DNA from: Fodinisporobacter ferrooxydans
GTDB lineage: Bacteria; Bacillota; Bacilli; Tumebacillales; MYW30-H2
Direction of reading: 5' to 3'
DNA: 64,000 nucleotides
Assembly: GCF_022818495.1 (NCBI RefSeq)
Contig: NZ_CP089291.1
Coordinates: forward strand, 1,582,501 to 1,646,500
Position numbers and translations under genes: made by a program. The notes below the pieces were generated by a model, which was not told where the DNA came from, did not search any database, and worked only from the letters and a program-made list of their open reading frames with translations. Shown here in pieces: positions 5,408-37,958 of this stretch. Numbering within the stretch: the stretch's first letter is position 1; every line of letters starts with the position of its first letter.

Positions 5408-5450
5408 TAGTCGTTTTGTACTAGTGTGATTGACTCGTTGTAACTATAGT
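5408..5450 (+). promoter_or_regulatory. Inverted-heptamer site plus -10 before cytochrome c
   Basis: TAGTCGTTTTGTACTA at 5408-5423 (site 1 of the six-member set), with a -10-like TATAGT at 5445-5450. The site centre lies 29.5 bp upstream of the hexamer, which would place it at about -41.5, the usual class II activator position. No good -35 is seen. Confidence 0.6.
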
Positions 5451-5537
5451 ACAGGAAAGTTCCCGGTGTTAGGTTTATTATGCAGGGCAGGACTTAATCT
5501 TTTACCTGATTATTTCATTAGATTTGGAGGTAGCCGT

Positions 5538-6011
5538 ATGAAGAAGAAACTCATCTTTGCTGCAATTGCCACAATGGGCGTATTAGTGCTTGCCGGTTGC
5601 GGCAGTACGTCAAGTTCGCAACAAGCGGATAACTCTTCCCAGTCTTCAAACACGCAAGCCGGTTCGGAGGCTTCTTCGCAAAGCGCCGGCAGTTCCGGTG
5701 GCGCCGCTAAAACAACCAACACAGGCGCAACAGCTTCTGCAGGAGATGCTGCGAAAGGAAAAGCTGTTTTCGATCAAAGTTGCGCCAGCTGCCATTCGAC
5801 GGGGACAGATCAGATCGTTGGACCAGGCCTGAAAGGGATAACGGCACAACCGACCATTGCAGCAAACGGCAAACCGATGAATGATACCAACTTGACTGAA
5901 TGGATCAAAACCGGCGGTACAGGTAAAATCGGCAACATGCCGGGTATGGCGGGAAGTCTTTCGGATCAGCAGATTGCAGATGTTGTGGCATATGTCAAGA
6001 CATTGAAGTAA
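5538..6011 (+). CDS. Lipoprotein cytochrome c (monohaem)
   Basis: A 157-residue membrane-anchored cytochrome c. The signal peptide ends in lipobox LAGC; a Ser/Gln/Ala-rich linker spans about residues 23-68. A class I haem domain follows, with CASCH and a distal Met probably in NMPGMAG. ATG 5538 follows TTGGAGG; the longer in-frame extension has no such site. In Gram-positive respirers such small lipoproteins carry electrons from the bc complex to terminal enzymes, so NosZ, encoded upstream, is the likely partner (inference). It has its own putative promoter at 5408-5450 and a strong terminator after it. Confidence 0.93.
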   Translation: MKKKLIFAAIATMGVLVLAGCGSTSSSQQADNSSQSSNTQAGSEASSQSAGSSGGAAKTTNTGATASAGDAAKGKAVFDQSCASCHSTGTDQIVGPGLKGITAQPTIAANGKPMNDTNLTEWIKTGGTGKIGNMPGMAGSLSDQQIADVVAYVKTLK

Positions 6012-6058
6012 TGGTTTATAAAATGCATTTCATTCCAATGAACATGTTGAAAGCAATG

Positions 6059-6096
6059 CAACACTCACGGTCTCTATGGGATTGTGAGTGTTTTTT
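6059..6096 (+). terminator. Rho-independent terminator after cytochrome c
   Basis: A 9-bp stem AACACTCAC / GTGAGTGTT (6060-6068 and 6084-6092) followed by TTTTT. It closes the nos transcription unit. Confidence 0.88.
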
Positions 6097-6142
6097 AAAG
6101 AGGTGTTTTTGCATTTTCAAGATTGGAGTACAAGATTGGGAG

Positions 6143-6158
6143 TAGTTGAAGTGAACTA
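6143..6158 (+). promoter_or_regulatory. Inverted-heptamer site, distal narK promoter region
   Basis: TAGTTGAAGTGAACTA (site 2 of the set). A weak -10-like TATCTG starts at 6181, 30.5 bp from the site centre. An imperfect hairpin, with CTGC/GCAG in its stem, lies at about 6178-6207. Confidence 0.5.
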
Positions 6159-6257
6159 TCTTAATATAGGAGTTTCGGACTATCTGCGCACTTGCAGCGA
6201 GTAGTCTTCGCTAGGGAAAATGAGAATGGAGAATCAGGAATTTGCGAAAAAAGAGTC

Positions 6258-6300
6258 AGGGAAGTCCCCGAATTACAAAGGGAAACTCCGGATTTAGAAT
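6258..6300 (+). promoter_or_regulatory. GC-rich palindrome and -10, proximal narK promoter
   Basis: AGGGAAGTCCCC (6258-6269) followed by TAGAAT at 6295-6300, 31.5 bp from the palindrome centre. The narG leader has the same arrangement. Nitrate-reductase promoters under NreC in staphylococci carry GC-rich palindromes, so NreC (18754-19410) is the candidate binder (inference). Confidence 0.55.
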
Positions 6301-6346
6301 TGCATTGTGAGGAGCAAATTGAATCACATGGAAAGAAGGGAATACA

Positions 6347-7531
6347 ATGACGAAGCAAAAAGGTGCAACGAGCGTTTTGGTAATCAGCACATTGGCAATG
6401 GTGGTTGCTTTCACCTGTTGGGCAGCGATCTCGCCATTGGCGGTGTTGCTGCAGAAAACGTACCATTTGTCCGCTACACAAAAAAGTATTTTGGTTGCGA
6501 TCCCTGTTTTATTGGGTTCCGTCATGCGGATTCCGCTGGGAATGGCGACAGACCGTTTCGGCGGCAGAAAAGTGTATTCTCTGCTGATGCTGTTCCTCGT
6601 CATTCCGGCGATTGGTCTTGCGAATGCCCATTCGTATATGGCTTATGTCGGTTGGGCGTTCTTGCTTGGCATGGCCGGAACATCCTTTGCGGTCGGGATC
6701 GCTTCCGTCTCAAAATGGTATCCGCCCAATGAACAAGGACTCGTACTTGGAATTACCGGTATGGGGAATATCGGAACGGCCGTTGCAGGGTTCGCTTTGC
6801 CCACAATTGCCAAAACCAGCGGTATCTCTTCCGCATTCTGGGCTTTGGTTGCGCCGGTCGTGATTGCGGCAGTTGCCATCTTCCTGTTTACGAAAGATCC
6901 AGTGGTGTCGAAAAAAGCTCAACCTGCCAGTCAACAATTCGCCGTTATGAAAAACAAAATGGTCTGGGTATTGTCATTATTCTACTTTGTCACATTTGGC
7001 GGTTTCGTTGCATTTGGAAACTACTTGCCGAGTCTGCTTGTCGACGTGTTTAAAATCACACCGATTGATGCAGGCATGCGTGCAGCAGGTTTTGTCGTAT
7101 TGGCAACGCTTGTCCGTCCGATTGGCGGATATTTGGCAGATAAATTTGGAGCCAGCAAGATGCTTTCATTGATCTTTATTCTGTTGTCTGCCTGTGCGCT
7201 CATCCTCAGTGTGGCGTTGTCGAACATTATTGCGATGACGATTGCTTGCCTATTGACGGCGGCTCTTGTCGGAATCGGCAATGGTACGGTATTTAAGCTT
7301 GTACCCCAATATTTCCCGACAACAACGGGGATCGTTACAGGGATTGTCGGAGCTGCCGGAGGAATCGGCGGATTTTTCCCGCCGATTGTCATGGGGATTA
7401 TCAAAGATGCTACAGGCGGCTATGCGTTGGGATTTGTCTTCCTGTTAGTCTTTACATTCTCCTGTTTGCTGGTAAATGGGAAATTGCGCCGGAGTGCTCC
7501 CAACAACATAAAAATGTCCAGCGCTTCTTGA
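6347..7531 (+). CDS. narK: Nitrate/nitrite transporter NarK (MFS)
   Basis: A 394-residue major facilitator protein with about 12 membrane segments. The motif GMGNIGTAVAGF matches the nitrate signature of the NNP (NarK/NasA) family. GMATDRFGGRK is the MFS loop between helices 2 and 3. It imports nitrate and/or exports nitrite for NarGHI. ATG 6347 follows AAGAAGGG. It stands alone between terminators and has two putative promoters (6143-6158 and 6258-6300). Confidence 0.94.
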   Translation: MTKQKGATSVLVISTLAMVVAFTCWAAISPLAVLLQKTYHLSATQKSILVAIPVLLGSVMRIPLGMATDRFGGRKVYSLLMLFLVIPAIGLANAHSYMAYVGWAFLLGMAGTSFAVGIASVSKWYPPNEQGLVLGITGMGNIGTAVAGFALPTIAKTSGISSAFWALVAPVVIAAVAIFLFTKDPVVSKKAQPASQQFAVMKNKMVWVLSLFYFVTFGGFVAFGNYLPSLLVDVFKITPIDAGMRAAGFVVLATLVRPIGGYLADKFGASKMLSLIFILLSACALILSVALSNIIAMTIACLLTAALVGIGNGTVFKLVPQYFPTTTGIVTGIVGAAGGIGGFFPPIVMGIIKDATGGYALGFVFLLVFTFSCLLVNGKLRRSAPNNIKMSSAS

Positions 7532-7906: not shown

Positions 7907-10900
7907 ATGAAAAAGCAGCCTTCCCCTTTTCTGAAAAAATTGCGGTTTTTTCAACCGCGTGAACGTTTTTCAGATGGTTGGAGTGAAGTAAGCCCACAAG
8001 ATCGGGAGTGGGAAAAAATATATCGGCAGCGCTGGCAGCATGACAAAGTTGTCAGAACGACACACGGGGTCAATTGTACAGGTTCCTGCAGCTGGAAAGT
8101 ATTTGTGAAAGACGGCATTATCACATGGGAAAATCAGCAAACGGATTATCCAAGCACCGGACCGGATATGCCGGAATTTGAACCGCGGGGATGTCCGCGG
8201 GGCGCCAGTTTTTCCTGGTACGTATACAGTCCGCTACGTGTGAAATATCCATATGTTCGCGGCAAGCTGCTGAAGTTTTGGCGGGAAGCGTTAAAGCAAA
8301 CAAACAACAATCCGGTGGCGGCATGGAAGAGTATTGTGGAAGATCCGGAAAAGACGAAGCAATACAAAAAAGCTCGCGGAAAAGGCGGATTTGTCCGTGC
8401 GACCTGGGATGAAGTAAACGGAATGATCTCAGCGGCCATGATTCACACGCTGCAATCCTATGGTCCGGATCGCATTGCCGGATTTACGCCCATACCTGCC
8501 ATGTCAATGGTCAGCTATGCATCAGGCGCACGTTTCCTTTCCATGGTCGGATCGCCAATGCTGAGTTTCTATGACTGGTATGCAGACTTGCCGCCTGCAT
8601 CGCCGCAGATTTGGGGCGATCAGACAGACGTGCCGGAAAGCAGCGACTGGTATAACGCCGGCTATATCATGATGTGGGGTTCCAATGTTCCGATGACACG
8701 TACGCCGGATGCCCACTTTATGACAGAAGTTCGGTACAAAGGCACAAAGGTCGTCGCGGTAAGCCCGGACTATGCGGAAAACGTGAAGTTCGCGGATAAC
8801 TGGCTGGCTCCAAATCCAGGTTCGGATGCGGCCTTGGCACAAGCGATGACACATGTCATTCTCAAAGAATTTTATGTTGAGAAACAGACGGAATATTTTA
8901 CTGATTATGCGAAACGGTATACCGATTTGCCGTATTGGATTCGATTGAAAAAACAAGGCGATGCTTACGTATCCGATCGTTTCTTGCTGGCGAGCGACCT
9001 CGGCTTTGACGTGAAACAAGGGGACTGGAAGCCGGTTGTTCTCGATGCGACAAGCGGTGAGTGGGTGATTCCGAACGGGAGTATCGGCCATCGCTGGGCG
9101 GATCATGGCAAATGGAATTTGAAGCAGGAAGACGATCAAGGTCGTCGGTATGATCCGAAATTGACGTTGCTGGGCTCGGAAGATGAGATTGTGCAAGTCG
9201 ATTTTCCCTACTTTGATGAACATACGCGGACGACATTCCGCCGCGGTTTGCCGGTGAAGACGATCGAACAGGATGGAGAGACCCTTTATGTCGCGTCTGT
9301 GTATGATCTCATGCTTGCCAATTACGGCGTGGGCCGTGGACTTCCGGGCGAATATCCGGTGGACTACCAAGACGCCAAGCCTTTTACACCTGCCTGGCAG
9401 GAACAACATACAGGCGTAAATCCGAATCTCGTCGTTCAGATCGCTCGCGAATTTGCCCAAAATGCGGTGGATACAAAGGGGCGGTCCATGATTATCATGG
9501 GTGCCGGGATTAACCACTGGTTTAATGGTGACACGATTTATCGGGCCATTCTGAACCTGGTTCTCTTAACAGGAGCGCAAGGTGTCAATGGCGGCGGATG
9601 GGCGCATTATGTGGGGCAGGAAAAATGCCGGCCGATTGAAGGGTGGTCGACAGTCGCTTTCGGGCGTGACTGGTCAATGCCGGCCAGACAGCAAAACGCC
9701 GCTTCTTTCTACTATTTTGCAACAGATCAATGGCGCTATGACGAATTGCCGCTGAATGAATTGGCGGCTGCCACGACCGGCAAACCGAGATATCAACATT
9801 CTGCCGATTACAATGTACTTGCGGCAAGGTTAGGCTGGCTGCCATCCTATCCGCAATTCAATCGAAATTCGTTGGATCTGGTGGAACAAGCCAAACGCAA
9901 TGGAGCGACTTCAGCCGAGGGATATTCCGATTATATCGTCAGGGAATTGAAAAATGGCGCAATGCAATTTGCAGTGGAAGATCCGGATCACCCGGTAAAC
10001 TTCCCGCGCATGTTGTTTGTCTGGCGCTCCAATCTATTGTCCAGTTCCGGCAAGGGGCACGAATATTTCTTGAAACATTTATTAGGGACACATCATGGTG
10101 TGTTATCGGAAGAAAGCAAGGATAACCGCCCGCAGGAAGTAATCTGGCGGGAGCAGGCTCCGGAAGGAAAGCTCGACTTGCTGGTCAGCCTTGATTTCCG
10201 AATGGCTGGCAACGCGCTGCATTCAGACATCGTATTGCCGGCAGCTACCTGGTATGAAAAACACGACTTGAGCAGTACAGATATGCATCCCTTCGTGCAT
10301 CCATTTAACCCGGCGATTAATCCGCCTTGGGAAGCGAAATCCGACTGGGATATTTTCAAAGGTTTGGCATACAGCTTTTCCGAGATGTCCAAGACGTATT
10401 TTGCAGGAACGAAAACAGATGTCGTAACAGTACCGCTGCTGCACGATTCGCCGGAAGAATTGTCACAGCCTTTTGGAAAAGTGCGGGATTGGCGCAAAGG
10501 GGAAATCGAAGCGATTCCTGGCCGAACGATGCCGAAGTTTGCGTATGTGGAACGGGATTATACGAAAATCTACGATAAATATATTGCGTTAGGACCCAAT
10601 GTTGAAAAAAATCCGGTCGGTGCGCATGGAATTTCTTTCTCTGTCGCGGATCAATATGATCGTCTGAAAAAATTCAATGGCGTTGTTGCAAAGCCTGGCA
10701 TCGCCAACGGCATGCCGAAATTGGAGACGGGACGGGATGCGGCGCAAGTGATGCTGACGCTGTCCAGCGCCACAAATGGCAAAATTGCAGTCCGCGCATG
10801 GGAAGCGGAAGAGAAAAAAACGGGCATGGAGCTGCGGGATTTGGCAGAAGAGCGGGCGAATGAACATTTTACATTTGCGGATATTACGGCACAACCGCGG

Positions 10901-11596
10901 CAGGTGATTCCGACACCGGTATTTAGCGGTTCGAATAAAGGAAATCGCCGCTACTCGCCATTTACCACATCGATTGAACGTCTCGTGCCATTCCGTACGC
11001 TGACTGGAAGACAACATTTTTATATCGATCATGAAATTTTGCTGGAATTCGGCGAAGGGTTTCCGATCTACAAGCCGACACTGCCAAGCCAAGTGTTTGC
11101 TGATTTTGATAACCAACCGGCAGAGCAAGGACCGGAAATCACGTTGCGTTATTTGACGCCACATGGCAAGTGGAATATTCACAGCATGTATCAGGACAAC
11201 TTGCACATGTTGACATTATTCCGCGGCGGCCCGAATGTCTGGATCAATCATAAAGACGCCGAGCAAGCAGGAATCAAAGATAACGATTGGCTGGAAGTCT
11301 ACAACCGCAATGGCGTGGTTACGGCACGGGCAGTCGTCAGTCACCGGATGCCGCGCGGCACTCTTTATATGTATCATGCCCAAGATCGGCATATCAATGT
11401 ACCCGGCTCGACGATTACAAAAGATCGCGGCGGTACACACAACAGCCCGACGAAAATTCATCTCAAACCAACACAGATGATCGGCGGCTATGCGCAATTA
11501 AGCTACGGGTTTAACTACTACGGCCCGATTGGCAATCAGCGGGATTTATACGTAAAGGTTCGCAAAATGAAGGAGGTGTCTTGGCTTGAAGATTAA
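7907..11596 (+). CDS. narG: Respiratory nitrate reductase alpha subunit NarG
   Basis: The 1229-residue Mo-bisMGD catalytic subunit facing the cytoplasm; reduces nitrate to nitrite. The N-terminal FS0 [4Fe-4S] ligands are visible as H53, C57, C61 and C96 (HGVNCTGSC ... CPRG), the His-first pattern specific to NarG. The Mo region contains DWYADLPPASPQIWG. The length is normal for NarG. The start follows AAAGGAG with an 8-nt spacer. It begins the narGHJI operon and overlaps narH by 11 nt. Confidence 0.98.
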   Translation: MKKQPSPFLKKLRFFQPRERFSDGWSEVSPQDREWEKIYRQRWQHDKVVRTTHGVNCTGSCSWKVFVKDGIITWENQQTDYPSTGPDMPEFEPRGCPRGASFSWYVYSPLRVKYPYVRGKLLKFWREALKQTNNNPVAAWKSIVEDPEKTKQYKKARGKGGFVRATWDEVNGMISAAMIHTLQSYGPDRIAGFTPIPAMSMVSYASGARFLSMVGSPMLSFYDWYADLPPASPQIWGDQTDVPESSDWYNAGYIMMWGSNVPMTRTPDAHFMTEVRYKGTKVVAVSPDYAENVKFADNWLAPNPGSDAALAQAMTHVILKEFYVEKQTEYFTDYAKRYTDLPYWIRLKKQGDAYVSDRFLLASDLGFDVKQGDWKPVVLDATSGEWVIPNGSIGHRWADHGKWNLKQEDDQGRRYDPKLTLLGSEDEIVQVDFPYFDEHTRTTFRRGLPVKTIEQDGETLYVASVYDLMLANYGVGRGLPGEYPVDYQDAKPFTPAWQEQHTGVNPNLVVQIAREFAQNAVDTKGRSMIIMGAGINHWFNGDTIYRAILNLVLLTGAQGVNGGGWAHYVGQEKCRPIEGWSTVAFGRDWSMPARQQNAASFYYFATDQWRYDELPLNELAAATTGKPRYQHSADYNVLAARLGWLPSYPQFNRNSLDLVEQAKRNGATSAEGYSDYIVRELKNGAMQFAVEDPDHPVNFPRMLFVWRSNLLSSSGKGHEYFLKHLLGTHHGVLSEESKDNRPQEVIWREQAPEGKLDLLVSLDFRMAGNALHSDIVLPAATWYEKHDLSSTDMHPFVHPFNPAINPPWEAKSDWDIFKGLAYSFSEMSKTYFAGTKTDVVTVPLLHDSPEELSQPFGKVRDWRKGEIEAIPGRTMPKFAYVERDYTKIYDKYIALGPNVEKNPVGAHGISFSVADQYDRLKKFNGVVAKPGIANGMPKLETGRDAAQVMLTLSSATNGKIAVRAWEAEEKKTGMELRDLAEERANEHFTFADITAQPRQVIPTPVFSGSNKGNRRYSPFTTSIERLVPFRTLTGRQHFYIDHEILLEFGEGFPIYKPTLPSQVFADFDNQPAEQGPEITLRYLTPHGKWNIHSMYQDNLHMLTLFRGGPNVWINHKDAEQAGIKDNDWLEVYNRNGVVTARAVVSHRMPRGTLYMYHAQDRHINVPGSTITKDRGGTHNSPTKIHLKPTQMIGGYAQLSYGFNYYGPIGNQRDLYVKVRKMKEVSWLED

Positions 11597-13097
11597 AGCA
11601 CAAGTCGCAATGGTCATGAACCTCGACAAATGTATTGGATGCCATACTTGCAGCGTCACATGCAAAAACACCTGGACGAATCGTCCGGGTGCGGAATATA
11701 TCTGGTTTAACAATGTAGAGACAAAACCGGGTGTCGGATATCCGGTGGAATGGGAAAATCAAGAGAAACGCAAAGGCGGCTGGATTCTGAAAGATGGAAA
11801 ACTGCAATTGCGGGCGGGGAACAAAGCAAATAAGCTGGCAAACATTTTTCATAATCCGGATCTGCCGACAATGGATGAATACTATGAACCCTGGAATTAT
11901 GATTATGAAACATTGATCAATAGTCCGGAGAAAAAACACCAGCCGGTTGCTCGTCCCAAATCGGCAGTGACCGGAGAATATATGGATATTCAATGGGGCC
12001 CGAACTGGGAAGACGACTTGGCGGGAGCGCCGGAACATGCGCCGCGGGATCCGAACCTGGTAAAACTGGAAGAATCGATCCGAATGGAATTTGAACAGGC
12101 GTTCATGATGTATTTGCCCCGCATTTGCGAACATTGTTTAAATCCCGGGTGTGTAGCTTCTTGCCCGTCCGGCGCCATGTACAAACGTGACGAAGACGGC
12201 ATTGTGCTGGTGGATCAAGAAGCATGCCGCGGCTGGCGTTTCTGCATGTCGGGTTGCCCGTATAAGAAGGTCTATTTTAACTGGCAGACGAAAAAAGCGG
12301 AAAAATGCACATTCTGTTTCCCGAGAATTGAAGCTGGTTTGCCGACAGTATGCTCGGAAACGTGCACAGGCCGTATTCGATATATCGGAATTCTCCTATA
12401 CGATGCGGATCGGGTGCAGGAAGCAGCTTCTACGCCAAATGAAAAAGATTTATATCAGGCCCAATTGAGCTTATTCCTGGATCCGAATGATCCTGCTGTG
12501 ATCGAGCAAGCGCGAAAAGATGGAATTGCTGACGACTGGATTGAAGCAGCGCAACATTCGCCGATTTACAAGCTGGCGATCAAGTACGGTGTGGCATTGC
12601 CGCTGCATCCGGAGTATCGTACGTTGCCAATGGTCTGGTATGTACCGCCGTTAAGTCCGATCATGAACGTTTTTGAAGGGAAAGGCAGCGAACTGAACGG
12701 CGATGTCATCTTCCCGGCGATTGAAGAAATGAGAATTCCGGTTGAATATTTGGCCAGTATTCTGACCGCCGGCGACACGGATGTGATTCGCCTGGTATTG
12801 GGAAGAATGGCTGCCATGCGCCATTATATGCGCAGCCAAACAACAGGGAAAGCGGCCAATCTTGAATTGCTTGAATCGCTTGGATTGACGGAAGAGACAG
12901 TGCAGGAAATGTACCGTTTATTGGCCATTGCCAAATACGAAGACAGATTTGTGATTCCGACCGCACATAAAGAGCAAGCGATGAATTTGTACAGCGAACA
13001 AGGATCGACAGGTTTTTCCTTTTCTGACTGCAATTCTTGTGAAGTAGGAGGATATTCCGGTGACAACATCCACTTCTATCCCTCATACCGAGATTGA
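11586..13097 (+). CDS. narH: Nitrate reductase beta subunit NarH
   Basis: A 503-residue iron-sulfur subunit carrying electrons from NarI to NarG. Four Cys clusters are visible: CIGCHTCSVTC near residue 16, CEHCLNPGCVASCP, CRGWRFCMSGCP (Trp in place of one Cys, giving the [3Fe-4S] centre) and CTFCFPR with CSETC. The start is TTG 11586, supported by AAGGAGGTG at 11570-11578. It overlaps narJ by 38 nt. Confidence 0.98.
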   Translation: MKIKAQVAMVMNLDKCIGCHTCSVTCKNTWTNRPGAEYIWFNNVETKPGVGYPVEWENQEKRKGGWILKDGKLQLRAGNKANKLANIFHNPDLPTMDEYYEPWNYDYETLINSPEKKHQPVARPKSAVTGEYMDIQWGPNWEDDLAGAPEHAPRDPNLVKLEESIRMEFEQAFMMYLPRICEHCLNPGCVASCPSGAMYKRDEDGIVLVDQEACRGWRFCMSGCPYKKVYFNWQTKKAEKCTFCFPRIEAGLPTVCSETCTGRIRYIGILLYDADRVQEAASTPNEKDLYQAQLSLFLDPNDPAVIEQARKDGIADDWIEAAQHSPIYKLAIKYGVALPLHPEYRTLPMVWYVPPLSPIMNVFEGKGSELNGDVIFPAIEEMRIPVEYLASILTAGDTDVIRLVLGRMAAMRHYMRSQTTGKAANLELLESLGLTEETVQEMYRLLAIAKYEDRFVIPTAHKEQAMNLYSEQGSTGFSFSDCNSCEVGGYSGDNIHFYPSYRD

Positions 13098-13647
13098 TCG
13101 GGAAGAACGGCAAAGAGTGTTTCAACTGCTTTCGCTGCTGCTTCAGTATCCGGATGAATGGGAGAACTATAAAGAATTATGTGAAGAAGTAGCGAACATT
13201 CAACACCCGCAAATCAAACAATGCGTATTTTCCTTTTTGGAATATTTAGAAGCTGCAAGTATCGATGAATGCAAGGTCAATTATGTGTATACCTTTGATT
13301 TCAATTCGAAAACCAATCTCTATCTCACATATTCGAACCAAGGCGAAGAACGGGAACGTGGGCAGTCATTGGTGAATCTGAAGCAACTCTATGAAGCAGC
13401 CGGGTTTGCGATGACATCCGAAGAGTTGGCGGACTATCTGCCGCTGGTGTTGGAATTTCTGGCTGTGGCGCCGATGGGTGCCGTTCTTGAGTTGGTGCGA
13501 TTGTACGATGCGTCCGTTCGCAAGATTTATGATCAATTGCAGGCTTCCAATAGCCCCTATGCAGCAGTATTGCAAGCGTGTATCTACGCATTTGAAATCT
13601 TGCAACCACAGACGGATCCAAACAATCCGTTCAAGGAGGCGGAATAA
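13060..13647 (+). CDS. narJ: Nitrate reductase assembly chaperone NarJ
   Basis: A 195-residue all-helical TorD/NarJ-family chaperone that inserts the Mo cofactor and helps haem loading of NarI. Conserved parts include YVYTFDFNSKTNLYLTY and a C-terminal acidic tail. GTG 13060 follows AGGAGG. Position between narH and narI supports the name. Confidence 0.95.
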   Translation: MTTSTSIPHTEIDREERQRVFQLLSLLLQYPDEWENYKELCEEVANIQHPQIKQCVFSFLEYLEAASIDECKVNYVYTFDFNSKTNLYLTYSNQGEERERGQSLVNLKQLYEAAGFAMTSEELADYLPLVLEFLAVAPMGAVLELVRLYDASVRKIYDQLQASNSPYAAVLQACIYAFEILQPQTDPNNPFKEAE

Positions 13648-13651
13648 TGCT

Positions 13652-17657: not shown

Positions 17658-18782
17658 ATGAATAGGCGGGTATTGAGGGGAATGTATATGGTATTATTAG
17701 GAAAATTAGATGAGAGCAAACCGGGAGATTCTTTCTTGGATACAATTTTTCAAAATATTTCCGATGGGATGTTAGTGGTTGATCGAGAAGGTATCATCGT
17801 GGGCGCGAATCGTGCCGCTGAGAAAATGACCGGATATTCCAGCGATGAGATGGTTGGCCGTCTTCAACTTTGTGATGTGTGTTTGGGTATGGCTACTTGC
17901 TACGAGGAGAAGTCCTGCGTTGACTGTTTTGCCAAAAAATTAAAAGTTTCTTCCTTTGAAATGCGCCTGCGGACGAGACGCGGGCAAGAAATCCCCGTTA
18001 CGGCCAGTTCGACCCGGATGCCGGACCATGCCATGGGAGCGTTGGTTGTAATTCTGCGTGATATGTCTGAGCAAAAACGCGTAGAGCGCGAACGGTTTCA
18101 GCGGATTACTACGAATCATGTGATACAAGCACAGGAAGAAGAGCGCAAACGGGTTTCCCGGGATTTGCATGATGGCGTAGGGCAGGCCCTTTATAGCATC
18201 GTTATTGGATTGCAATTGCTGCAAAATCAGGTGGTCAATGAGGATGTAAAAAATTATCTGGAAGATGTTCATCAGATGACCATCCGTGCGTTGGAAGAAG
18301 TCAAAAGCCTGGCCGTCGAACTTCGTCCATCCGCTTTGGATGATCTCGGTCTTATACCTGCCATACGTTCGTATAGCAAACGCTTTGAACAAACGTTTGG
18401 GATTGAAACGGAGTTGGAAGTCAGCGGACCCATGCGGCGCTATGCATCTTCAGTGGAGACTGCCCTTTACCGCATTTGCCAGGAAGCGATGACGAACGCT
18501 GTAAAATACGCAGATACGGATAAAATTCACATTCGACTGAGGGATGAAGGGCATTTGTTAGAGTTGCAGATTGCGGACAAGGGCCAAGGATTTGATGTAA
18601 ACCAAATTGAAATCCAAGGAACGGGTCTCGGATTGTATGGAATGAGTGAACGTGCGCATTTGTTAGGCGGGCAGTTGGACATACAATCTTCCATCGGAGA
18701 AGGTACTTGTATTTCCGTGTCTGTGCCGTTAAGCGAAAGGGGGGAACCGATCTATGAAAATTCGCATATTGATCGCGGATGA
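17658..18782 (+). CDS. nreB: Oxygen-sensing histidine kinase NreB
   Basis: A 374-residue soluble kinase. An N-terminal PAS domain carries CDVC ... CVDC with spacing C-x2-C-x11-C-x2-C, identical to the oxygen-labile [4Fe-4S] ligands of staphylococcal NreB; an extra Cys lies between. A HisKA_3 H-box ([12 protein letters not shown]) and HATPase motifs ([21 protein letters not shown]) follow. Under anaerobiosis the cluster is intact and NreB phosphorylates NreC. The start is uncertain: ATG 17658 (AAAGG upstream) or ATG 17688 (GAGGGG with better spacing), which would remove 10 residues. It overlaps nreC by 29 nt. Confidence 0.93.
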
Positions 18783-19410
18783 TCATGCGATTGTCAGATC
18801 CGGGTTAACCATGCTGATCAATGCGCAAGCGGATATGGAAGTTGTAGCGACTGCTGCAGATGGGAATGAAGCGATTCAGAAGGCGCTGGAATGGAAACCG
18901 GATATTGTTTTAATGGATTTAAGCATGCCGCCTGGCGAGAATGGGTTGACAGCGACGACGCGTTTAAAAGAAATGGCGCCGGAGATCCACGTGTTGATCC
19001 TAACGATGCATGACGACGAGGAATATTTATTCCGGGTTTTGCATGCAGGTGCATCTGGATATATCTTGAAAAGCGCACCGGATATGGATTTGATTTCGGC
19101 CATTCATACGGTCCATCAAGGAGCGGCATATCTGTATCCATCCGCGACAAAACTTTTGATTCAGGAATTTTTTAATCGTTCCCGTTCTGCTGAAGATGCC
19201 GATGGCCTGCATATTTTAACGGAACGTGAGCAAGAGATTTTAGCATTGATTGCAAAAGGATATTCAAATAAGGAAATTGCAGAAAAACTGGTGGTTTCGG
19301 TAAAAACGGTAGAGACACACAAGACGAAAATCATGGAAAAATTACATCTTAGAACTCGCCCGGAATTGGTAAGATACGCGATGAAAAAAGGGCTGTTAGA
19401 TTTTGAATAG
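18754..19410 (+). CDS. nreC: Response regulator NreC
   Basis: A 218-residue NarL/FixJ-type regulator: receiver domain with the acidic pair ADDH, phospho-acceptor Asp in VLMDLSMP, Thr/Lys in TMHD and LKSA, and a C-terminal LuxR-type HTH ([25 protein letters not shown]). It pairs with NreB. Candidate targets in the window are the GC-rich palindromes before narK and narG, or the 7-2-7 heptamer sites. Its stop overlaps possible starts of moeA. Confidence 0.93.
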
Positions 19411-21717: not shown

Positions 21718-21719
21718 TT

Positions 21720-27936: not shown

Positions 27937-28012
<76 letters not shown>

Positions 28013-28172: not shown

Positions 28173-28193
28173 TCTTGCATTTTTATAAGAATC

Positions 28194-28316
28194 ATGAGTT
28201 TAGATCAGGTACCGTGCGTCGGAAACTCCGAACCGTGTCAGATCCTGACGGAAGCAGCACTAAGGGGATCTCTCCGAGCGTTGCGGCAATACCTGGTCTA
28301 AACTCATGGTTTTTTT
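28194..28316 (+). ncRNA. ffs: Signal recognition particle RNA (small type), with terminator
   Basis: The apical domain has GTGTCAGATCCTGACGGAAG followed by CAGCACTAAG, the conserved SRP54-binding hairpin. The ends pair (ATGAGTTTAGA / TCTAAACTCAT) and run into seven T, so the closing stem also serves as terminator of the tRNA cluster. Confidence 0.9.
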
Positions 28317-30174: not shown

Positions 30175-30258
30175 ACGTTGTTGTCCTCTTTTCTGCACAT
30201 GAATTCCTTATTCTATCTGTCATGTTCGTATTTTTATTCATAGATCTTTAATTGCAAA

Positions 30259-30274
30259 TAGTCCAAATGGACTA
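30259..30274 (-). promoter_or_regulatory. Inverted-heptamer site before the chemoreceptor gene
   Basis: TAGTCCAAATGGACTA, fully palindromic (site 3 of the set). On the minus strand TAAAAA starts 30.5 bp downstream as a possible -10. Confidence 0.6.
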
Positions 30275-30525: not shown

Positions 30526-30795
30526 ATGATTTTGGGAGATGCGGTCATTGCTACGAATTCAGATCACCAAATTCTTGAACTTAACAGAGAATACGAACAG
30601 GCATGTGGCTACAATCACTCCCAATTGATAGGAAAAAAAGCCGAATTTATAAAATCAGGTCTAACTCCTAAATATGTATATAATGCCTTAAAGGAATCCC
30701 TAAGCCAAAACAAAAGCTGGATGGGAATATTAACAAATAGAAAGCCGGATGGATATTTATGGAACCCACCTTTAATAACTGGGATCATTTGTTAG
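30526..30795 (+). pseudogene. Orphan PAS-domain fragment
   Basis: 89 residues covering the first two thirds of a PAS domain (DAVIATNSDHQILELNREYE, then GYNHSQLIGKK and NKSWMGILTNRKPDG). It ends before the last PAS strands and has no output domain. No good ribosome binding site precedes ATG 30526, and the frame is open only a little further upstream. Probably the remnant of a sensor protein; a free PAS protein is possible. Confidence 0.6.
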
Positions 30796-30858
30796 CGATT
30801 TATCGCGACCAAAATAAGACAGACAGTTTGCCCAGTTAAGCAAAAACCTTCATTTGTT

Positions 30859-31064: not shown

Positions 31065-31724
31065 ATGCCGATTCGAGTACTTGTAGTTGATGATCATCAA
31101 TTGTTTCGACGTGGAGTTATAGGCATATTACAGTTGTCGGAGGAGTTTGAAGTTGTTGGCGAAGGAAGCAATGGCGAAGAAGCCGTTGATATGGTGGAGC
31201 GTGTAAAACCTGATGTATTGATCATGGATTTATCCATGCCCGTTATGAATGGGATGGAAGCAATGCGTCAGATTCAGCATATGGAGACAAGTACGCGAGT
31301 TCTTATTTTAACTGTAAATGAAGAAGAAGAAGCATTATTTGAAGCTGTGAAAAATGGAGCACAAGGATATTTGATAAAAACGGTGGAGCCGAATGAGTTA
31401 CTGGCCGCTATTCGCAATGTCGCTGCCGGAGAAGCTGTAATACCTAGCAATCTGGCCGTTAAGATCTTGTCTGAAATCGCCAAACCGAAACCGGTGACTG
31501 TTGAAGCATTGATTGAACCATTGACGCAAAGAGAGCTGGAAGTGTTAAAGGAGCTTGGGAAAGGATTCTCCAATCGGGAAATTGCCAAACATCTTTTTAT
31601 TAGTGAAAATACCGTACGCAACCACGTACGTAATATATTGGATAAATTGCACATGACAAACCGTGTGCAAGCAGCAGCATATGCCGTGCGAGAAGGTCTG
31701 ATCAAAGGGGATGAAACCAGTTGA
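31065..31724 (+). CDS. Second NarL/NreC-type response regulator
   Basis: 219 residues. The receiver has VDDHQLFRRG, LIMDLSMPVMNG with the phospho-acceptor Asp, and Lys in LIKTVEP; the LuxR-type HTH is LTQRELEVLKELGKGFSNREIAKHL. ATG 31065 follows GAGGTG; the frame reaches back to 30999 without a good site. TATAAT at 30954-30959 is a likely -10. Its stop overlaps the kinase start. NarL-family proteins bind paired 7-bp half-sites, and the 7-2-7 sites near this gene make it a prime candidate binder (inference). Confidence 0.92.
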   Translation: MPIRVLVVDDHQLFRRGVIGILQLSEEFEVVGEGSNGEEAVDMVERVKPDVLIMDLSMPVMNGMEAMRQIQHMETSTRVLILTVNEEEEALFEAVKNGAQGYLIKTVEPNELLAAIRNVAAGEAVIPSNLAVKILSEIAKPKPVTVEALIEPLTQRELEVLKELGKGFSNREIAKHLFISENTVRNHVRNILDKLHMTNRVQAAAYAVREGLIKGDETS

Positions 31725-32785
31725 GTAGTCTGCAGGACTTTTTGTCAAAGCCGGAAGGTTCATTGCCAATCTTTGAGTCGCATGTTTTTCGGCATGTTTT
31801 TGAATATGCAGCTGACGGTTATATCATTCTGGACGAACATATGAATGTGTTGTATATGAATCAAACAGCGAAGACGTGGTTTGGCGATTTGTCCATGAAT
31901 CATCCGATACGTTGCAACGATCTGTTGCATTGTCACGATGGACAGGGAAATTCGCTAAAACAATCCGGATGTTATGGACAGTGTGTATTTTTCTCAAAGT
32001 CTTCATTAACCAATATTGAAATGAACGTAAAAAATCTGGCAGGAGAAGAACGGCTTGTTTCTGTTTCCTACTCGTATATTCCATCTCATTCATTAACAGA
32101 ACGCATCATTATGATGTCGATTCGGGATATTACCGATGCCAAGCAATTCGAGGCAGAAAAGAGAAAAGTTGAAAAATTGACATATACGATTCGTGAACGT
32201 GAGCGGTTGGCCAGAGATTTACATGACACGGTTGCACAGGATCTGGCGTTCGCAAATATGAAATTAAAAGTTATCGAACAAGATGCGGCAAAGCTTCAGG
32301 GTGACAAACTTTGTGAATCTATTCACGATGTTTCGGTTGTTTTGGATGATTGCCTTGTGGAGCTTCGACATACGTTGCGGGATTTAAACTTTTCAGGAAG
32401 AGACCTACATGGCTTTGTTCAAAACACTGTACGTACGTTTGAAAAACGTACTGGCATTCAAATAAAATTGTACGTGGAGGGAACATTTGAAGATTTGGAT
32501 GTCATGATTGCCACACAAGTAGCGAGATTGCTACAGGAATCGTTGGCGAATATTCGAAAACATGCGAAAGCAACCATAGCCATCCTTTCATTGATTCGAA
32601 CAAATCATATGTTGAAAGTAATGGTCAGTGATAATGGAATCGGCTTTGACCCGGATTCCATCAATGCAGAACATCATTTTGGATTGCGCTCCATGCGTGA
32701 ACGATGTGCTGCAATGCACGCAAGAGCAGTCTTGGATGCGAAGCCTGGGAAAGGAACGACTTGGACATTTGAATTTGACTTATAG
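31721..32785 (+). CDS. Cysteine-rich PAS histidine kinase (NreB-like paralogue)
   Basis: A 354-residue soluble kinase. The N-terminal PAS contains four Cys in RCNDLLHC ... GCYGQC, spaced C-x5-C-x12-C-x3-C, which differs from the NreB cluster but may also hold a metal or Fe-S group. A HisKA_3 H-box (RDLHDTVAQDLAF) and HATPase motifs (DNGIGFD, FGLRSMRERC) follow. TTG 31721 overlaps the regulator stop (TTGA). It forms a pair with the upstream regulator; the signal is unknown, with oxygen, NO or redox state as candidates. Confidence 0.9.
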   Translation: MSSLQDFLSKPEGSLPIFESHVFRHVFEYAADGYIILDEHMNVLYMNQTAKTWFGDLSMNHPIRCNDLLHCHDGQGNSLKQSGCYGQCVFFSKSSLTNIEMNVKNLAGEERLVSVSYSYIPSHSLTERIIMMSIRDITDAKQFEAEKRKVEKLTYTIRERERLARDLHDTVAQDLAFANMKLKVIEQDAAKLQGDKLCESIHDVSVVLDDCLVELRHTLRDLNFSGRDLHGFVQNTVRTFEKRTGIQIKLYVEGTFEDLDVMIATQVARLLQESLANIRKHAKATIAILSLIRTNHMLKVMVSDNGIGFDPDSINAEHHFGLRSMRERCAAMHARAVLDAKPGKGTTWTFEFDL

Positions 32786-32823: not shown

Positions 32824-32863
32824 AACCGCCTTGTTTAGTCTCATTGGACTATGAAGGGCGGTT
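32824..32863 (+). terminator. Terminator hairpin containing a heptamer site
   Basis: Outer arms AACCGCC / GGCGGTT and inner arms TAGTC / GACTA, followed by ATTTTG. The inner part, TAGTCTCATTGGACTA at 32836-32851, is site 4 of the heptamer set, so it may be an operator, a terminator, or both. A TATTAA at 32877 is only a weak -10 candidate. Confidence 0.6.
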
Positions 32864-33030: not shown

Positions 33031-33648
33031 ATGCATGTAAAACGCACAAAAGTATTACAAATTTCAAAAAATATCCAACAGATAGAATTTCAAGATATAT
33101 TTCGGACAATCGATCGTAAAATTCTTGAATTCTTGCAAAATTATTCTGCACTCATTGCGTCAATCATGGGGATTGGCTTATGCGCTTGGGGTTTGTTCCG
33201 ACATGACTTAAATTTGGTTATCGAAACCTTGCTTTCAGGTGCAATCGGTTATTACATAGGCTTTTTCCCCGCATTAATCGTAAATCTATTTATATTTTTT
33301 CTCCGAATTCATAGTGCAGGACCTGCATATCAGGTGTTTGATGTAAAGGTATTGCAGTTTTTTGGATGTGCGTATATTGCCTGGTTGGGATTTTGCCATC
33401 GTCAATCGGCGCTTTTCAGCCGTCAGCAATTCTTTCAGGAAGAGCCACATGCCCATCTCATATCTTGGACATTGGTAAACGAGGTGCGAAACTCTTTGAT
33501 GGCGATGCGATTATTATTATTTAAGTACTACAAATCAGAAACGGAACAAAGTGAATTTAAGCTCGTAGAAGATGAACTGTTGCGACTGGAGTTAATTTTC
33601 GGTTCTTTGTCAAAAAGTCATCCTCGCCAAAAACCGCCAAAACACTAG
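33031..33648 (+). CDS. Membrane protein with DHp-like domain lacking the phospho-His
   Basis: 205 residues. Two hydrophobic stretches (about residues 40-58 and 67-93) form a membrane hairpin region. The C-terminal third, with WTLVNEVRNSLMAMRLLL and later VEDELLRLELIF, resembles the helical dimerisation domain of histidine kinases around the H-E-x-R-N box, but Asn stands where the His is expected, and no ATPase domain follows. It may be a pseudokinase-like partner or scaffold, or an unrelated helical protein. It lies between the two-component pair and the oxidase genes. Confidence 0.6.
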   Translation: MHVKRTKVLQISKNIQQIEFQDIFRTIDRKILEFLQNYSALIASIMGIGLCAWGLFRHDLNLVIETLLSGAIGYYIGFFPALIVNLFIFFLRIHSAGPAYQVFDVKVLQFFGCAYIAWLGFCHRQSALFSRQQFFQEEPHAHLISWTLVNEVRNSLMAMRLLLFKYYKSETEQSEFKLVEDELLRLELIFGSLSKSHPRQKPPKH

Positions 33649-33663: not shown

Positions 33664-33707
33664 TAGTCCATTTGTACTAGAGTGTAACAATGCTAACGGA
33701 CTATAAG
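33664..33707 (+). promoter_or_regulatory. Inverted-heptamer site and -10 before the ba3 oxidase operon
   Basis: TAGTCCATTTGTACTA at 33664-33679 (site 5) with TATAAG at 33702-33707, 30.5 bp from the site centre. The local layout, including TACTAG after the N4-TG core, closely resembles site 1 before cytochrome c. Confidence 0.6.
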
Positions 33708-34044: not shown

Positions 34045-34524
34045 ATGTACATGCCTCGTTCTGAGAAGGTTTGGATCACCATTGGAGGCGTGGTTTTAGC
34101 AGCTTTTTTTGCTACGGTTGCTATAGACGCATTTGTAATGGGTGCAACTCCACCGTCTGATCCAAAAATGATTGATCCGGCAAAAGTAAGTACAACACCG
34201 CCATTTGACAAACCAGGCTTGGTTCAAGTCGGACCGAAAGAATATGATGCCAATATGACTGCATTCACCTTTGGTTTCGGTCCAAATGTGTTAAATGTTC
34301 CGGTAGGCGCTAAAGTGAACTTTCATGTCACCAGCAAAGATGTGGTACATGGATTTGAAATTCCTGGTACTGATGTAAACATGATGATTGATCCGGGATT
34401 TGTGAATAGCGCATCACATACGTTTGATAAGCCGGGAAAATACTTAATCTTGTGCAATGAATATTGTGGTGCGGGACACCAGTTGATGATGGCTACTATC
34501 ATTGTAGGTGGTGATGCGAAGTGA
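34045..34524 (+). CDS. ba3-type cytochrome oxidase subunit II (CuA)
   Basis: 159 residues with one N-terminal membrane anchor and a cupredoxin domain. CuA ligands are in CNEYCGAGHQLM (C-x3-C-x3-H-x2-M) plus the upstream His of VVHGFEIPG. A single anchor helix fits the ba3 family rather than the two-helix aa3 type. ATG 34045 follows GAGAAGGTGA. It overlaps subunit I by 4 nt. Confidence 0.93.
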   Translation: MYMPRSEKVWITIGGVVLAAFFATVAIDAFVMGATPPSDPKMIDPAKVSTTPPFDKPGLVQVGPKEYDANMTAFTFGFGPNVLNVPVGAKVNFHVTSKDVVHGFEIPGTDVNMMIDPGFVNSASHTFDKPGKYLILCNEYCGAGHQLMMATIIVGGDAK

Positions 34525-36182
34525 TGACGCAAGACAATTCGATACTGGCGCGTTTTGATAAAAAGGATGCATCCCTGAGTCTGGCATATGTTGTAATTGC
34601 TTTTTTAGCGATATTCATTGGTGCTATTGCAGGTCTTCTGCAAGGACTTGACCGTGGTCATTTGATTACACTTCCAAGCACCTTATATTATGAGATTTTA
34701 ACTGCACATGGCGTGATGATGGGAGTTATTTTTACGACCTTTTTTATCATTGGATTCCTGTTTGCAGGTACAGCCCGCACTGTTGGGGGACTTACCAACC
34801 TTTCCAGATCACTGGGTTGGATTGGCTACTGGATGATGGTGATTGGCACAGCTCTTGGAACGGCTGAGATTTTAGCTGGGAATGCTTCTGTACTTTATAC
34901 GTTTTATGCACCTTTAAAAGCTTCCCCCTTTTTTTATATCGCATTGACTTTGATTGTTGTGGGGAGCTGGCTTGGTGGATACGGAATATTTGCAAGTTTC
35001 GTCAATTGGCGCCGCAATCATAAAGGACAGACAACACCCCTGTTTGCTTATATGGCAACTGCAACCATGGCATTATGGCAAATTGCCACACTTGGTGTTG
35101 CGGCTGAAGTTCTCTTTCAATTGATTCCATGGTCATTTGGGTGGGTTCCGACGATTGATGTACTGCTCAGTCGTACATTATTCTGGTTTTTTGGGCATCC
35201 TCTGGTATATTTCTGGCTCTTGCCGGCATATGCTTGTTGGTATGTAAACATTCCGAAGATTATTGGCACCAAACTTTTTAGCAATGCATTGCCGCGTGTG
35301 ACTTTTATGTTGTTCTTGTTATTGTCTACGCCGGTCGGATTCCACCATCAATTGCTTGAGCCAGGAATCCCGCCGAGTTGGAAGGCGTTGCATGTTGCAT
35401 TGACAATGGGTGTTGTTATTCCTTCTTTGATGACCGCATTCGCCTTGTTTGCAACATTTGAGATCCGCGGCCGTGAACGCGGCGCCAAGAGTCTCTTTGG
35501 ATGGTTTTCCTCACTGCCATATAGTGATGTTCGTTTTTTTGGACCATTCATGGGCATGTTAATGTTTATTCCGGCAGGTATTGGCGGTATTATCAATGCC
35601 AGTTTTCAATTGGATGAAGTCGTTCATAATACGTTATGGGTTACTGGACATTTCCATATTACTGTAGGGGCAGCCGTTGCATTAACTTTCTTTGGGACGG
35701 CGTATTGGCTGATTCCTGCTCTTAATGGGCGTGTCTTAACACCGCGCATGAATAAAATGGGCTTGCTGCAAGTGTTCTTATGGGTTGTCGGCATGACTTT
35801 CATGTCAGTCTCCATGCATACATTAGGATTGTTGGGAGAACCGCGCCGTACAGCGTTTACGAATTATTTGAACAGTCCTGTCGTGCAAGAATGGGCAGGA
35901 ATGCGTTTGACATTGGCAATTGGCGGGATCATCCTTTTCATATCTGCCATGATTTTGACCGCTAATATTGTGAATCTCCTGTTTTTTGCTCCCAAAGGCG
36001 AAACTGAGTTTCCGGTCGCAGAAGAAGCTGCTGCAACACCTGAGAGCGTTCCACCGATTTTGGAGCGCTGGGGAGTCTGGTTGTCAATCGCGGTTGTATT
36101 GGTTTTGATTGCGTATACTATGCCTGTTTACGATCAAATCCAACTCCATCCACCAGGATCGAAAGGTTTTGTTACCTGGTAA
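34521..36182 (+). CDS. ba3-type cytochrome oxidase subunit I
   Basis: A 553-residue haem-copper oxidase, about 13 membrane helices. The CuB/Tyr region reads GHPLVYFWLLPAY and the haem ligands sit in VTGHFHITVG; an early His in TAHGVMMG ligates the low-spin haem. The B-family form (ba3) fits the IIa and II partners and suggests high oxygen affinity. GTG 34521 or ATG 34524 may be the start. No subunit III or assembly gene follows; the unit ends at terminators. Confidence 0.94.
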   Translation: MMTQDNSILARFDKKDASLSLAYVVIAFLAIFIGAIAGLLQGLDRGHLITLPSTLYYEILTAHGVMMGVIFTTFFIIGFLFAGTARTVGGLTNLSRSLGWIGYWMMVIGTALGTAEILAGNASVLYTFYAPLKASPFFYIALTLIVVGSWLGGYGIFASFVNWRRNHKGQTTPLFAYMATATMALWQIATLGVAAEVLFQLIPWSFGWVPTIDVLLSRTLFWFFGHPLVYFWLLPAYACWYVNIPKIIGTKLFSNALPRVTFMLFLLLSTPVGFHHQLLEPGIPPSWKALHVALTMGVVIPSLMTAFALFATFEIRGRERGAKSLFGWFSSLPYSDVRFFGPFMGMLMFIPAGIGGIINASFQLDEVVHNTLWVTGHFHITVGAAVALTFFGTAYWLIPALNGRVLTPRMNKMGLLQVFLWVVGMTFMSVSMHTLGLLGEPRRTAFTNYLNSPVVQEWAGMRLTLAIGGIILFISAMILTANIVNLLFFAPKGETEFPVAEEAAATPESVPPILERWGVWLSIAVVLVLIAYTMPVYDQIQLHPPGSKGFVTW

Positions 36183-36290: not shown

Positions 36291-36386
36291 TTTGGATACA
36301 AGTTTTTTGAATACAGTCATGGAATATCCCAACGTTTATTTGAATTCAAAAAATTGTGCTCCTATTTTTAAAAGTATGGGCAAAAA

Positions 36387-36422
36387 GGCAAAAGAGCCTC
36401 ATGGATTAGGGGCTCTTTTGCC
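36387..36422. terminator. 12-bp bidirectional hairpin
   Basis: GGCAAAAGAGCC / GGCTCTTTTGCC between the rightward oxidase and leftward AcuB-like gene. A-rich DNA precedes the left arm, fitting leftward termination. Confidence 0.7.
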
Positions 36423-36492
36423 ATGTTTGTAAAGATGGTATGAAGGGAAAGGTGACCATGCATGTTGCCGTTGGATTTTTCAATCTAAAAAG

Positions 36493-37128
36493 TTATTCAA
36501 GTGGAGGATCAATTACGGTATATCCATTGTTTTTTAAATGTTGAATGATCTTTCCTGGATCAATCGTTTTCACGCGCAAACTGATCCTTCGCGTAAGTGG
36601 AGTATTGGATGGCAGCATCAGCATTGAGCATACTTTCGCATTGCATTGCAGCAGTACATTTGCAATCCCAAATAAGCCTTGGGGTGTATCCGGCAATTCT
36701 ACTTCGATTCTGCTGGATGGTGTTGACACGCCCATCATCTCTACTAATGTTTGCAAAATGTCATTTCGTGTGAGAATTCCGACCAATTGGTTGTCTTTCA
36801 TTACAGGTAAAAATCCGATTCGATACTGATACATTTTTAAGGCAGCATCTTCCACGAAGTCGAGAGGATGCACAGTGATGAGATTCACCTGCTTCATAAA
36901 TTGCTTGACAGGTGTATTTAATATAGATGAATCTGGATTTTCGTCGAGTATGGAAGGGCGTGCATCCCGAATATCAATATCGGAGACGATTCCTATCACT
37001 TCTCCATTCGAAACAACAGGAAAATGCCGGATTTGATTCTTTTTTTCGAGTTCCAAAATCTCACTTAAAGTGGATTCCGGCGAAAGCGTTATAATATTCT
37101 CTTTCACCATAATCTGCTCGACTAACAT
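36493..37128 (-). CDS. acuB: AcuB-like CBS-ACT protein
   Basis: A 211-residue cytoplasmic protein with two CBS domains (about residues 5-60 and 75-130) and a C-terminal ACT-like domain (about 140-210). This is the AcuB layout, linked to acetoin utilisation and acetyl-CoA synthetase control; CBS pairs usually bind adenine nucleotides. The start at 37128 has AAAGGAG; the longer frame does not. No acuA or acuC is present, so the gene name rests on domain order. Confidence 0.8.
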   Translation of the reverse strand: MLVEQIMVKENIITLSPESTLSEILELEKKNQIRHFPVVSNGEVIGIVSDIDIRDARPSILDENPDSSILNTPVKQFMKQVNLITVHPLDFVEDAALKMYQYRIGFLPVMKDNQLVGILTRNDILQTLVEMMGVSTPSSRIEVELPDTPQGLFGIANVLLQCNAKVCSMLMLPSNTPLTRRISLRVKTIDPGKIIQHLKNNGYTVIDPPLE

Positions 37129-37212
37129 GTTTCGTTGCTCCTTTCCCATGTATCAGCAGTGAAAAATCAAACCAATAGGCACAATGGGTCTTGGAAATCC
37201 TATGCCTGGCAT

Positions 37213-37644
37213 TTATTTTACAATAAGAACCGGGCAAACAGCATGCTGAGCTACTTTATGGCTTACACTTCCTAAAACCAATTCGCTGAACGCGCCTAAA
37301 CCGCGGCTTCCCATCACAATCAAATCATATTGTTCTGCTTTCGCCTTATCATAGATTTCCAAAGCCGGATCTCCGGAAACAATCACGCTATTGCACGGAA
37401 TTCCTGCATGAAGTACTTTTTCTGCGGCTGGCTTTAGCAGTTTCATGCTTTCTTCATTTATTTTCTCTTCGATATTGATATCGATGGCGATTAAGTCTCC
37501 ACCCCAATAATGAACAAGCGGATTTACATGCAATAAAGTAATTTGACAAATCGATTCTCTGCCTCTGCAAAGGGAAATGGCTGCATCTGTTGCTCTTTGC
37601 GAATGTTCTGAACCGTCATAAGCTACCAGTATTTTATTATACAT
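37213..37644 (-). CDS. Universal stress protein (UspA family)
   Basis: 143 residues with the Usp fold: N-terminal ILVAYDGSEHS and the ATP-binding motif GSRGLGAFSELVLGSVS (G-2x-G-9x-G-S type). The start is chosen from GGAGGGG upstream of 37644. The upstream region was entered by a MITE only 45 bp from the start, which probably separates the gene from older control elements. Confidence 0.92.
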   Translation of the reverse strand: MYNKILVAYDGSEHSQRATDAAISLCRGRESICQITLLHVNPLVHYWGGDLIAIDINIEEKINEESMKLLKPAAEKVLHAGIPCNSVIVSGDPALEIYDKAKAEQYDLIVMGSRGLGAFSELVLGSVSHKVAQHAVCPVLIVK

Positions 37645-37688
37645 ACTATACCCCTCCAAGTGTTTTGGAATTTTTATAATATCCTACA

Positions 37689-37845
37689 AGAGGATGTTCA
37701 AAAAGTAGTCAAAACTCCACGGCGGCTTGCTTTGCCGAATCCCAAAAAGGCTTACTCATGTACCAAACACGTACACTCCGTCGCCTTTTCGTGCTTCGGC
37801 TTTGCACTCCTTGTGTCTTACTTAACCACTTTTTGAACACACACT
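37689..37845 (+). mobile_element. 157-bp MITE, copy C
   Basis: Full element with the same terminal repeats, flanked by TACAAG at 37685-37690 and 37845-37850. It lies just upstream of the universal stress protein gene. Confidence 0.9.
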
Positions 37846-37915
37846 ACAAGAATCATTATGACAGTTTCGAAATGAACAAGGGAGTTCAGAATTAACTAAT
37901 ATGTGAATGTTTTAC

Positions 37916-37958
37916 TAGTTAAATTGAACTATTTTTAGGTAGTAAAAACGGATATAAA
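37916..37958 (+). promoter_or_regulatory. Inverted-heptamer site with rightward -10
   Basis: TAGTTAAATTGAACTA at 37916-37931 (site 6) followed by TATAAA at 37953-37958, exactly 29.5 bp from the site centre. No rightward gene follows; a hairpin at 37992-38027 would end a transcript of about 65 nt. Confidence 0.5.

Follow-up and report, generated by a model that had tools for sequence, protein, structure and literature searches.

A conserved NarL-like inverted heptamer and its candidate response regulator in a respiratory gene cluster of Fodinisporobacter ferrooxydans

Introduction

NarL of enteric bacteria recognizes heptamers with the consensus TACYYMT. The output domain of NarL binds as a dimer to two inverted heptamers placed 2 bp apart, and a high-affinity site, TACCCCTAAAGGGGTA, has been engineered (PMC4549865, in part). 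We analysed a 64,000-nucleotide stretch of Fodinisporobacter ferrooxydans (contig NZ_CP089291.1, positions 1,582,501 to 1,646,500 of the forward strand; the whole stretch is hereafter called the window), in which an earlier note had listed six copies of an inverted heptamer and proposed that they form a NarL-family 7-2-7 operator across a respiration regulon. Both NarL-type regulators counted in that note are encoded in the window with Response_reg and GerE domains, at 18754-19410 (here RR1) and 31065-31724 (RR2), and histidine kinases, HK1 and HK2, lie next to them.

The sites in the window and in other genomes are built like the operators of Escherichia coli NarL and NarP, with two inverted heptamers and a 2-bp spacer, whereas the putative regulon differs in being centred on terminal oxidases and on its own sensors. 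In staphylococci, NreABC controls nitrate respiration, and NreC acts on nar, nir and narT from a GC-rich palindrome (PMC8139620, in part); in Bacillus licheniformis, NreBC controls sulfide oxidation (PMC9918477, in part). These systems share with the window the combination of a soluble PAS kinase carrying a cysteine cluster with a NarL-type regulator. Their counterpart here is RR1/HK1; the cysteine spacing of HK2 and the operator differ. In the LiaFSR three-component systems, LiaF is inhibitory (PMC7191749, in part). LiaFSR also brings together a NarL-family regulator, a HisKA_3 kinase and a small membrane protein within one regulon, but the membrane protein of the window is DHp-like and has no phosphoacceptor histidine. 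A literature search, in which subscription papers were sparsely covered, returned no account of this regulon and no described respiratory two-component regulon for these groups of Bacillota.

Results

The pattern of the earlier note, TAGTYNNNNTGNACTA, matched exactly at all six sites listed below and had no match in 100 dinucleotide shuffles of the window. The main features are as follows.

Site 1: 5408..5423, + strand, before the cytochrome c gene (5538-6011); the worst fit to the cross-genome consensus
Site 2: 6143..6158, + strand, before narK (6347-7531) and narGHJI (7907-14353)
Site 3: 30259..30274, fitting the palindromic pattern on either strand, upstream of the chemoreceptor gene (28909-30198, - strand)
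RR2: 31065..31724, + strand, NarL-type response regulator and best candidate for binding the operator
HK2: 31721..32785, + strand, PAS and HisKA_3 histidine kinase, a likely partner of RR2
Terminator-like hairpin: 32825..32863 (edges approximate), + strand, about 40 bp past the stop codon of HK2
Site 4: 32836..32851, + strand, 179 bp before the pseudo-DHp gene, in the inner arm of the hairpin
Pseudo-DHp gene: 33031..33648, + strand, small membrane protein with DHp-like C-terminal helices and His replaced by Asn
Site 5: 33664..33679, + strand, before the heme-copper oxidase genes COX2 (34045-34524) and COX1 (34524-36182); we take the oxidase to be of type ba3, following the earlier naming
Site 6: 37916..37931, + strand, with two candidate targets, a universal stress protein (Usp) gene or a + strand promoter

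Because TAGTYNNNNTGNACTA had been derived from the same six sites, a second consensus, TAGTYCRNNYGRACTA, suggested mainly by sites in other genomes, was used as a check at no more than one mismatch. It recovered four of the six sites and had no further match in the window (mean of 0.04 in shuffles). Sites 4 and 1 carry two and three mismatches to it, respectively; at three mismatches, the 20 matches in the window are at chance level (shuffle mean, 16.5). Across the 4.86-Mb genome, the pattern of the note was found at 12 places, two of which matched on both strands and were counted once, and six of the 12 fall within this 33 kb. The looser form TAGTN8ACTA occurs at 31 places genome-wide and its reversed pattern at 162. 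Four of the 10 consensus places in the genome lie in the window (binomial P = 6e-6, the consensus having been fixed after the sites had been seen).

Outside the window, sites in the same genome stand 43 bp before a PAS-HisKA kinase gene (699324), 67 bp before a CoA-disulfide reductase-like gene (which likewise has a site in genome G377), 26 bp before a thiol peroxidase gene, 180 bp before nirK, 116 bp before a second pseudo-DHp gene and, on one reading of the gene start, 94 bp before a formate dehydrogenase-like gene.

TAGTCC..GGACTA palindromes were found upstream of relatives of the pseudo-DHp gene in genomes of 42 to 61% G+C, and in two other families the palindrome stands before genes that are orthologous or analogous. 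We examined the surroundings of 118 of the 122 consensus places counted in 28 other genomes with a pseudo-DHp gene, the genome under study and G082 being excluded; five of the 122 places, in G288, were unlisted, one more was met by chance, identical flanks were merged, and G341 contributed none. Of these sites, 79 lie outside predicted genes with a start codon within 450 bp, 33 lie inside genes and 6 do neither. Among sites with intact TAGT/ACTA ends, only 2 of 53 are inside genes, and none of the 18 sites without mismatch is. The reversed pattern in the same genomes, taken at one place per genome, was inside genes in 23 of 28 cases; the pattern of the note, taken likewise in relatives, was inside in 7 of 19 (one from G033, which has RR2). 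The latter control shows that patterns bearing TAG tend to fall outside genes in any case; 2/53 is therefore more fairly compared with 7/19.

Position counts over 74 sites of other genomes were symmetric and sharpened the consensus: on this comparison, the site is a 7-2-7 palindrome, TAGTCCR-NN-YGGACTA. As had been noted, it is not the enteric heptamer. Positions 1, 2, 4, 5 and 6 mostly fit TACYYMT, and the difference lies at position 3, which is G in 73/74 sites, and at position 7, which is A or G in 72/74. An additional half-site, AGTYC, had 13 occurrences at offsets +23 to +26, counted from the first base of the site, against a mean of 0.24 per offset in rows that include related genomes; it possibly reflects cooperative binding.

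Distinct genes 12-303 bp downstream of the sites were grouped into families; Pfam was run on one member of each, and the remaining genes took their names from BLAST clustering. Those with an upstream site are as follows.

RR2 orthologs: 9 genes (a tenth member of the cluster is CheY-like)
Pseudo-DHp: 8 genes
COX2: 6 genes
PAS-HisKA kinase: 5 genes
HK2-like kinases: 4 genes
Universal stress proteins: 4 genes
UbiA/CtaB-like: 4 genes
Cytochrome bd subunit I: 3 genes
Phosphofructokinase: 3 genes
Formate/nitrite transporter: 3 genes
CtaA, chemoreceptor, hemerythrin, Crp/Fnr, cytochrome b: 2 genes each
Nitric oxide reductase: 1 gene

A further 26 target clusters are singletons, some without evident link to respiration. 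The site occurs in the promoter of RR2 itself in at least nine genomes, which suggests autoregulation.

These comparisons bear on individual sites in the window. The chemoreceptor gene as target of site 3 is supported by chemoreceptor genes in G140 and G199, which also have a site, 143-144 bp upstream. Site 6 lies 257 bp before the Usp gene (37213-37659, - strand), and Usp genes in other genomes also carry sites; alternatively, it may serve a + strand promoter with TATAAA at 29.5 bp, for which the first gene is ambiguous. Site 4 lies at the usual distance from its gene, its 179 bp falling in the range of 124-213 bp before eight such genes elsewhere. It also sits in a strong terminator-like hairpin behind HK2 (71-base fold, -23.5 kcal/mol, z -4.3), so that the promoter view is not the sole reading. 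A terminator scan that allowed loops of no more than 8 bases, and so excluded this hairpin, did not list it. We read site 4 as a putative operator overlapping a terminator.

The earlier note had placed a -10-like hexamer 29.5-30.5 bp from the centre of every site except site 4, as for activators at -41.5. Hexamers with five of the six consensus bases were indeed present at 29.5 or 30.5 bp for site 1 (TATAGT, 29.5 bp), site 5 (TATAAG, 30.5 bp) and site 6, but the best fit was 3/6 for site 2 and at best 4/6 for site 3; that for site 4 was at best 2/6. In the whole genome, 5 of 16 site-promoter pairs had a good -10 element at these distances: three belong to window sites, one to the second pseudo-DHp gene and one to the CoA-disulfide reductase-like gene. 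As a general rule, the -41.5 arrangement was rejected: among 92 site-gene pairs of other genomes, one had a 5/6 hexamer at 30.5 bp and none had one at 29.5 bp, and the top two-offset counts were 6, at 10.5 and 53.5-54.5 bp (mean 1.4). Therefore, either the arrangement varies or the start assignments in those genomes are poor. At the kinase gene 699324, TATAAT starts 13.5 bp from the site centre, which would suit repression. Where promoters of this genome have their -10 element 30 bp away from the site, activation is more likely than repression.

Sites are relatively commoner where RR2 is present than where it is absent, and RR2 is therefore the best candidate binder. Forward and reversed consensus places numbered 129/210 in 27 RR2 genomes (including that under study); the remaining 43 genomes had 104/477 (Mann-Whitney P 1.4e-5). 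At E <= 1e-60, RR2 was found in 26 of 30 genomes with the pseudo-DHp gene and in 2 of 40 without. In G033, one of these two, an exact consensus site stands 130 bp ahead of a gene adjoining the HK2-RR2 pair; in the other, G002, the match contains an in-frame stop and the genome has no consensus place. RR2 consists of a receiver and a GerE/LuxR-type helix-turn-helix domain (Response_reg 5e-30, GerE 3.2e-21). Its best match among solved structures is NarL (1a04, E 2.8e-46), and it scores 201.8 bits on the NCBIfam NarL equivalog NF007935, below the cutoff of 250. The recognition helix of RR2, ISENTVRNHVRNIL, is nearly identical among orthologs that are 51-67% identical overall, and it is closer to that of NarL, ITESTVKVHVKHML, than the helix of RR1 is.

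The sites might be shared by RR1 and RR2, or by two RR2 paralogs, as NarL and NarP share sites in E. coli. Overlapping specificity is common in the NarL family, and this genome has two RR2-like genes and several NarL-type paralogs. We consider such sharing unlikely, as genomes with RR1 only showed no sign of the sites and there is no site by the second RR2-like gene within the 14 kb examined.

Binding by RR1 alone, the regulator beside the nar operon, is very unlikely. The features concerned are as follows.

HK1: 17658..18782, + strand, PAS and HisKA_3 kinase, nearby and with no tie to the operator in the evidence
RR1: 18754..19410, + strand, NreC-like response regulator, rejected as alternative binder

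The RR1 gene lies within 13 kb of both site 1 and site 2, HK1 carries C-x2-C-x11-C-x2-C, which we take to be the signature of NreB, and staphylococcal NreC does act through a palindrome. However, RR1 orthologs (77-83% identical) are present in 12 of 13 other genomes of the same order, in which the sites are depleted (forward/reversed, 24/173) relative to RR2 genomes, and the recognition helix of RR1 is unlike those of NarL and RR2. Matches to TAGGGN4CCCTA, the NreC palindrome, were at chance level in the window (14 at no more than two mismatches, none exact, against a shuffle mean of 12.6). The least credible explanation, to which we assign a negligible chance, is that another respiratory regulator of Crp/Fnr or Rex type or chance hairpins account for the sites: a Crp/Fnr gene does lie near nirK upstream of the window and site 4 does form part of a hairpin, but the Fnr-type motif TTGATN4ATCAA (6 found against a mean of 5.4) overlaps none of the six sites, and hairpins explain neither why the sequence is conserved nor why it stands before many promoters and co-occurs with RR2.

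HK2 has four cysteines in the arrangement C-x5-C-x12-C-x3-C. HK2 and its full-length relatives share them in all 8 rows that cover the region (C-x5-C-x12-C-x2/3-C in relatives), and four other rows are without them; the spacing in HK1 differs, and HK2 lacks the HK1 pattern. The conserved cysteines in the PAS domain of HK2 are probably an iron-sulfur or redox sensor. The PAS-HisKA kinase gene, whose promoter carries a site in this genome (699324), adjoins RR2 in many relatives.

The small membrane protein encoded at 33031-33648 had no match in Pfam or NCBIfam. Its family, present in 30 genomes, has the motif N-E/D-[VIL]-R-[NTS]-S-L, as compared with H-E-I-R-N-P-L of the HisKA kinase. In all 38 rows of the family, a few of them repeats, Asn occupies the phosphoacceptor position, the sole His being that of the comparison kinase. 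The link to DHp domains is drawn from this H-box-like motif and a weak match to the kinase profile (E 0.011, probability 3.7%). An AlphaFold model (mean pLDDT 51.9) was too poor for a fold search and suggests two C-terminal helices. The family looks like a membrane-bound piece of a pseudo-kinase.

Other features were noted around these genes. Near-identical loci in opposite orientation, at G000:C1 180003-183811 and 1878530-1879717, each contain a NarL-type regulator gene, a 71-codon pseudo-DHp fragment and a site-like palindrome, TAGTACGTCCAGACTA. A gene for a PduL-type phosphotransacylase fused to acetate kinase lies at 38752-40503, and in G208 and G306 a 56% identical protein is encoded beside the pseudo-DHp gene. 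A short PAS-like frame seen by eye at about 30530-30800, between the genes for the chemoreceptor and RR2, is perhaps a decayed sensor. The RR2/oxidase block is flanked by two stretches: a complete rRNA operon (16S, 23S, 5S) at 21719-28301, where eleven tRNA genes and a small SRP RNA are also encoded, and, at about 42.4-48.8 kb, a stretch poor in open reading frames with four tRNA genes and repeats about 21.16 kb away, which is probably another rRNA operon. To the left of the window, contig positions 1563001-1582500 encode a copper nitrite reductase-like protein (under the NCBIfam cutoff), a large NorB-like protein, a Crp/Fnr regulator and NnrS-like proteins; with these denitrification genes, the window continues a larger island.

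Discussion

The genome comparison, a test called for in the earlier note, supports the NarL-family 7-2-7 operator proposed there, and the six sites are probably operators of one NarL-type response regulator, RR2, that would retune the respiratory chain. RR2, phosphorylated by HK2 and/or the PAS-HisKA kinase, would bind the inverted heptamers TAGTCCR-NN-YGGACTA as NarL does, with two output domains forming a dimer. It may thereby retune terminal oxidases, nitrate and nitrite reduction, heme supply, chemoreceptors and stress proteins. The pseudo-DHp membrane protein, itself encoded within the regulon, would probably modulate a kinase or RR2.

Several observations weigh against this assignment. 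TAG and CTA ends disfavour coding positions regardless of function, 33 of the 118 sites fall within predicted genes, and the gene calls are those of our own predictor script. G341 and G377 have both RR2 and the pseudo-DHp gene, though only 0 and 1 consensus places, respectively; before the pseudo-DHp gene they have a TAGTGCA variant instead. Four genomes with the pseudo-DHp gene (G082, G110, G332 and G359) have no RR2 match at E <= 1e-60. The consensus is outnumbered by its reversed form in RR2 genomes too (0.61); the reversed control is therefore uncalibrated, and only the difference between groups counts. No site stands directly before RR2 in the window, and the genome has a second RR2-like gene (35281-35925, 56% identical), the one without a site nearby. 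Odd singleton targets include sbcD here and pilin-like and acyl-CoA-ligase-like genes elsewhere.

More tentatively, RR2 may belong to a branched redox-signalling system of Bacillota, in which two unrelated kinases (a soluble HisKA_3 kinase whose four-cysteine sensor would be new, and a PAS-HisKA kinase) and the membrane-anchored pseudo-DHp protein converge on one NarL-type regulator that chooses the terminal oxidase through a newly recognised variant heptamer. This possibility is rather doubtful at present; under it, the pseudo-DHp protein would read the state of the membrane or of quinones and act as a decoy or adaptor for a kinase or the regulator.

If RR2 is the binder, a genome-readable operator and its candidate regulator would be available for the switching of oxidases, nitrate respiration and stress protection in several families of Bacillota, and the targets of one regulator would become predictable in dozens of genomes. 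The comparison also brings to light a conserved pseudo-kinase-like membrane protein, whose role is directly testable.

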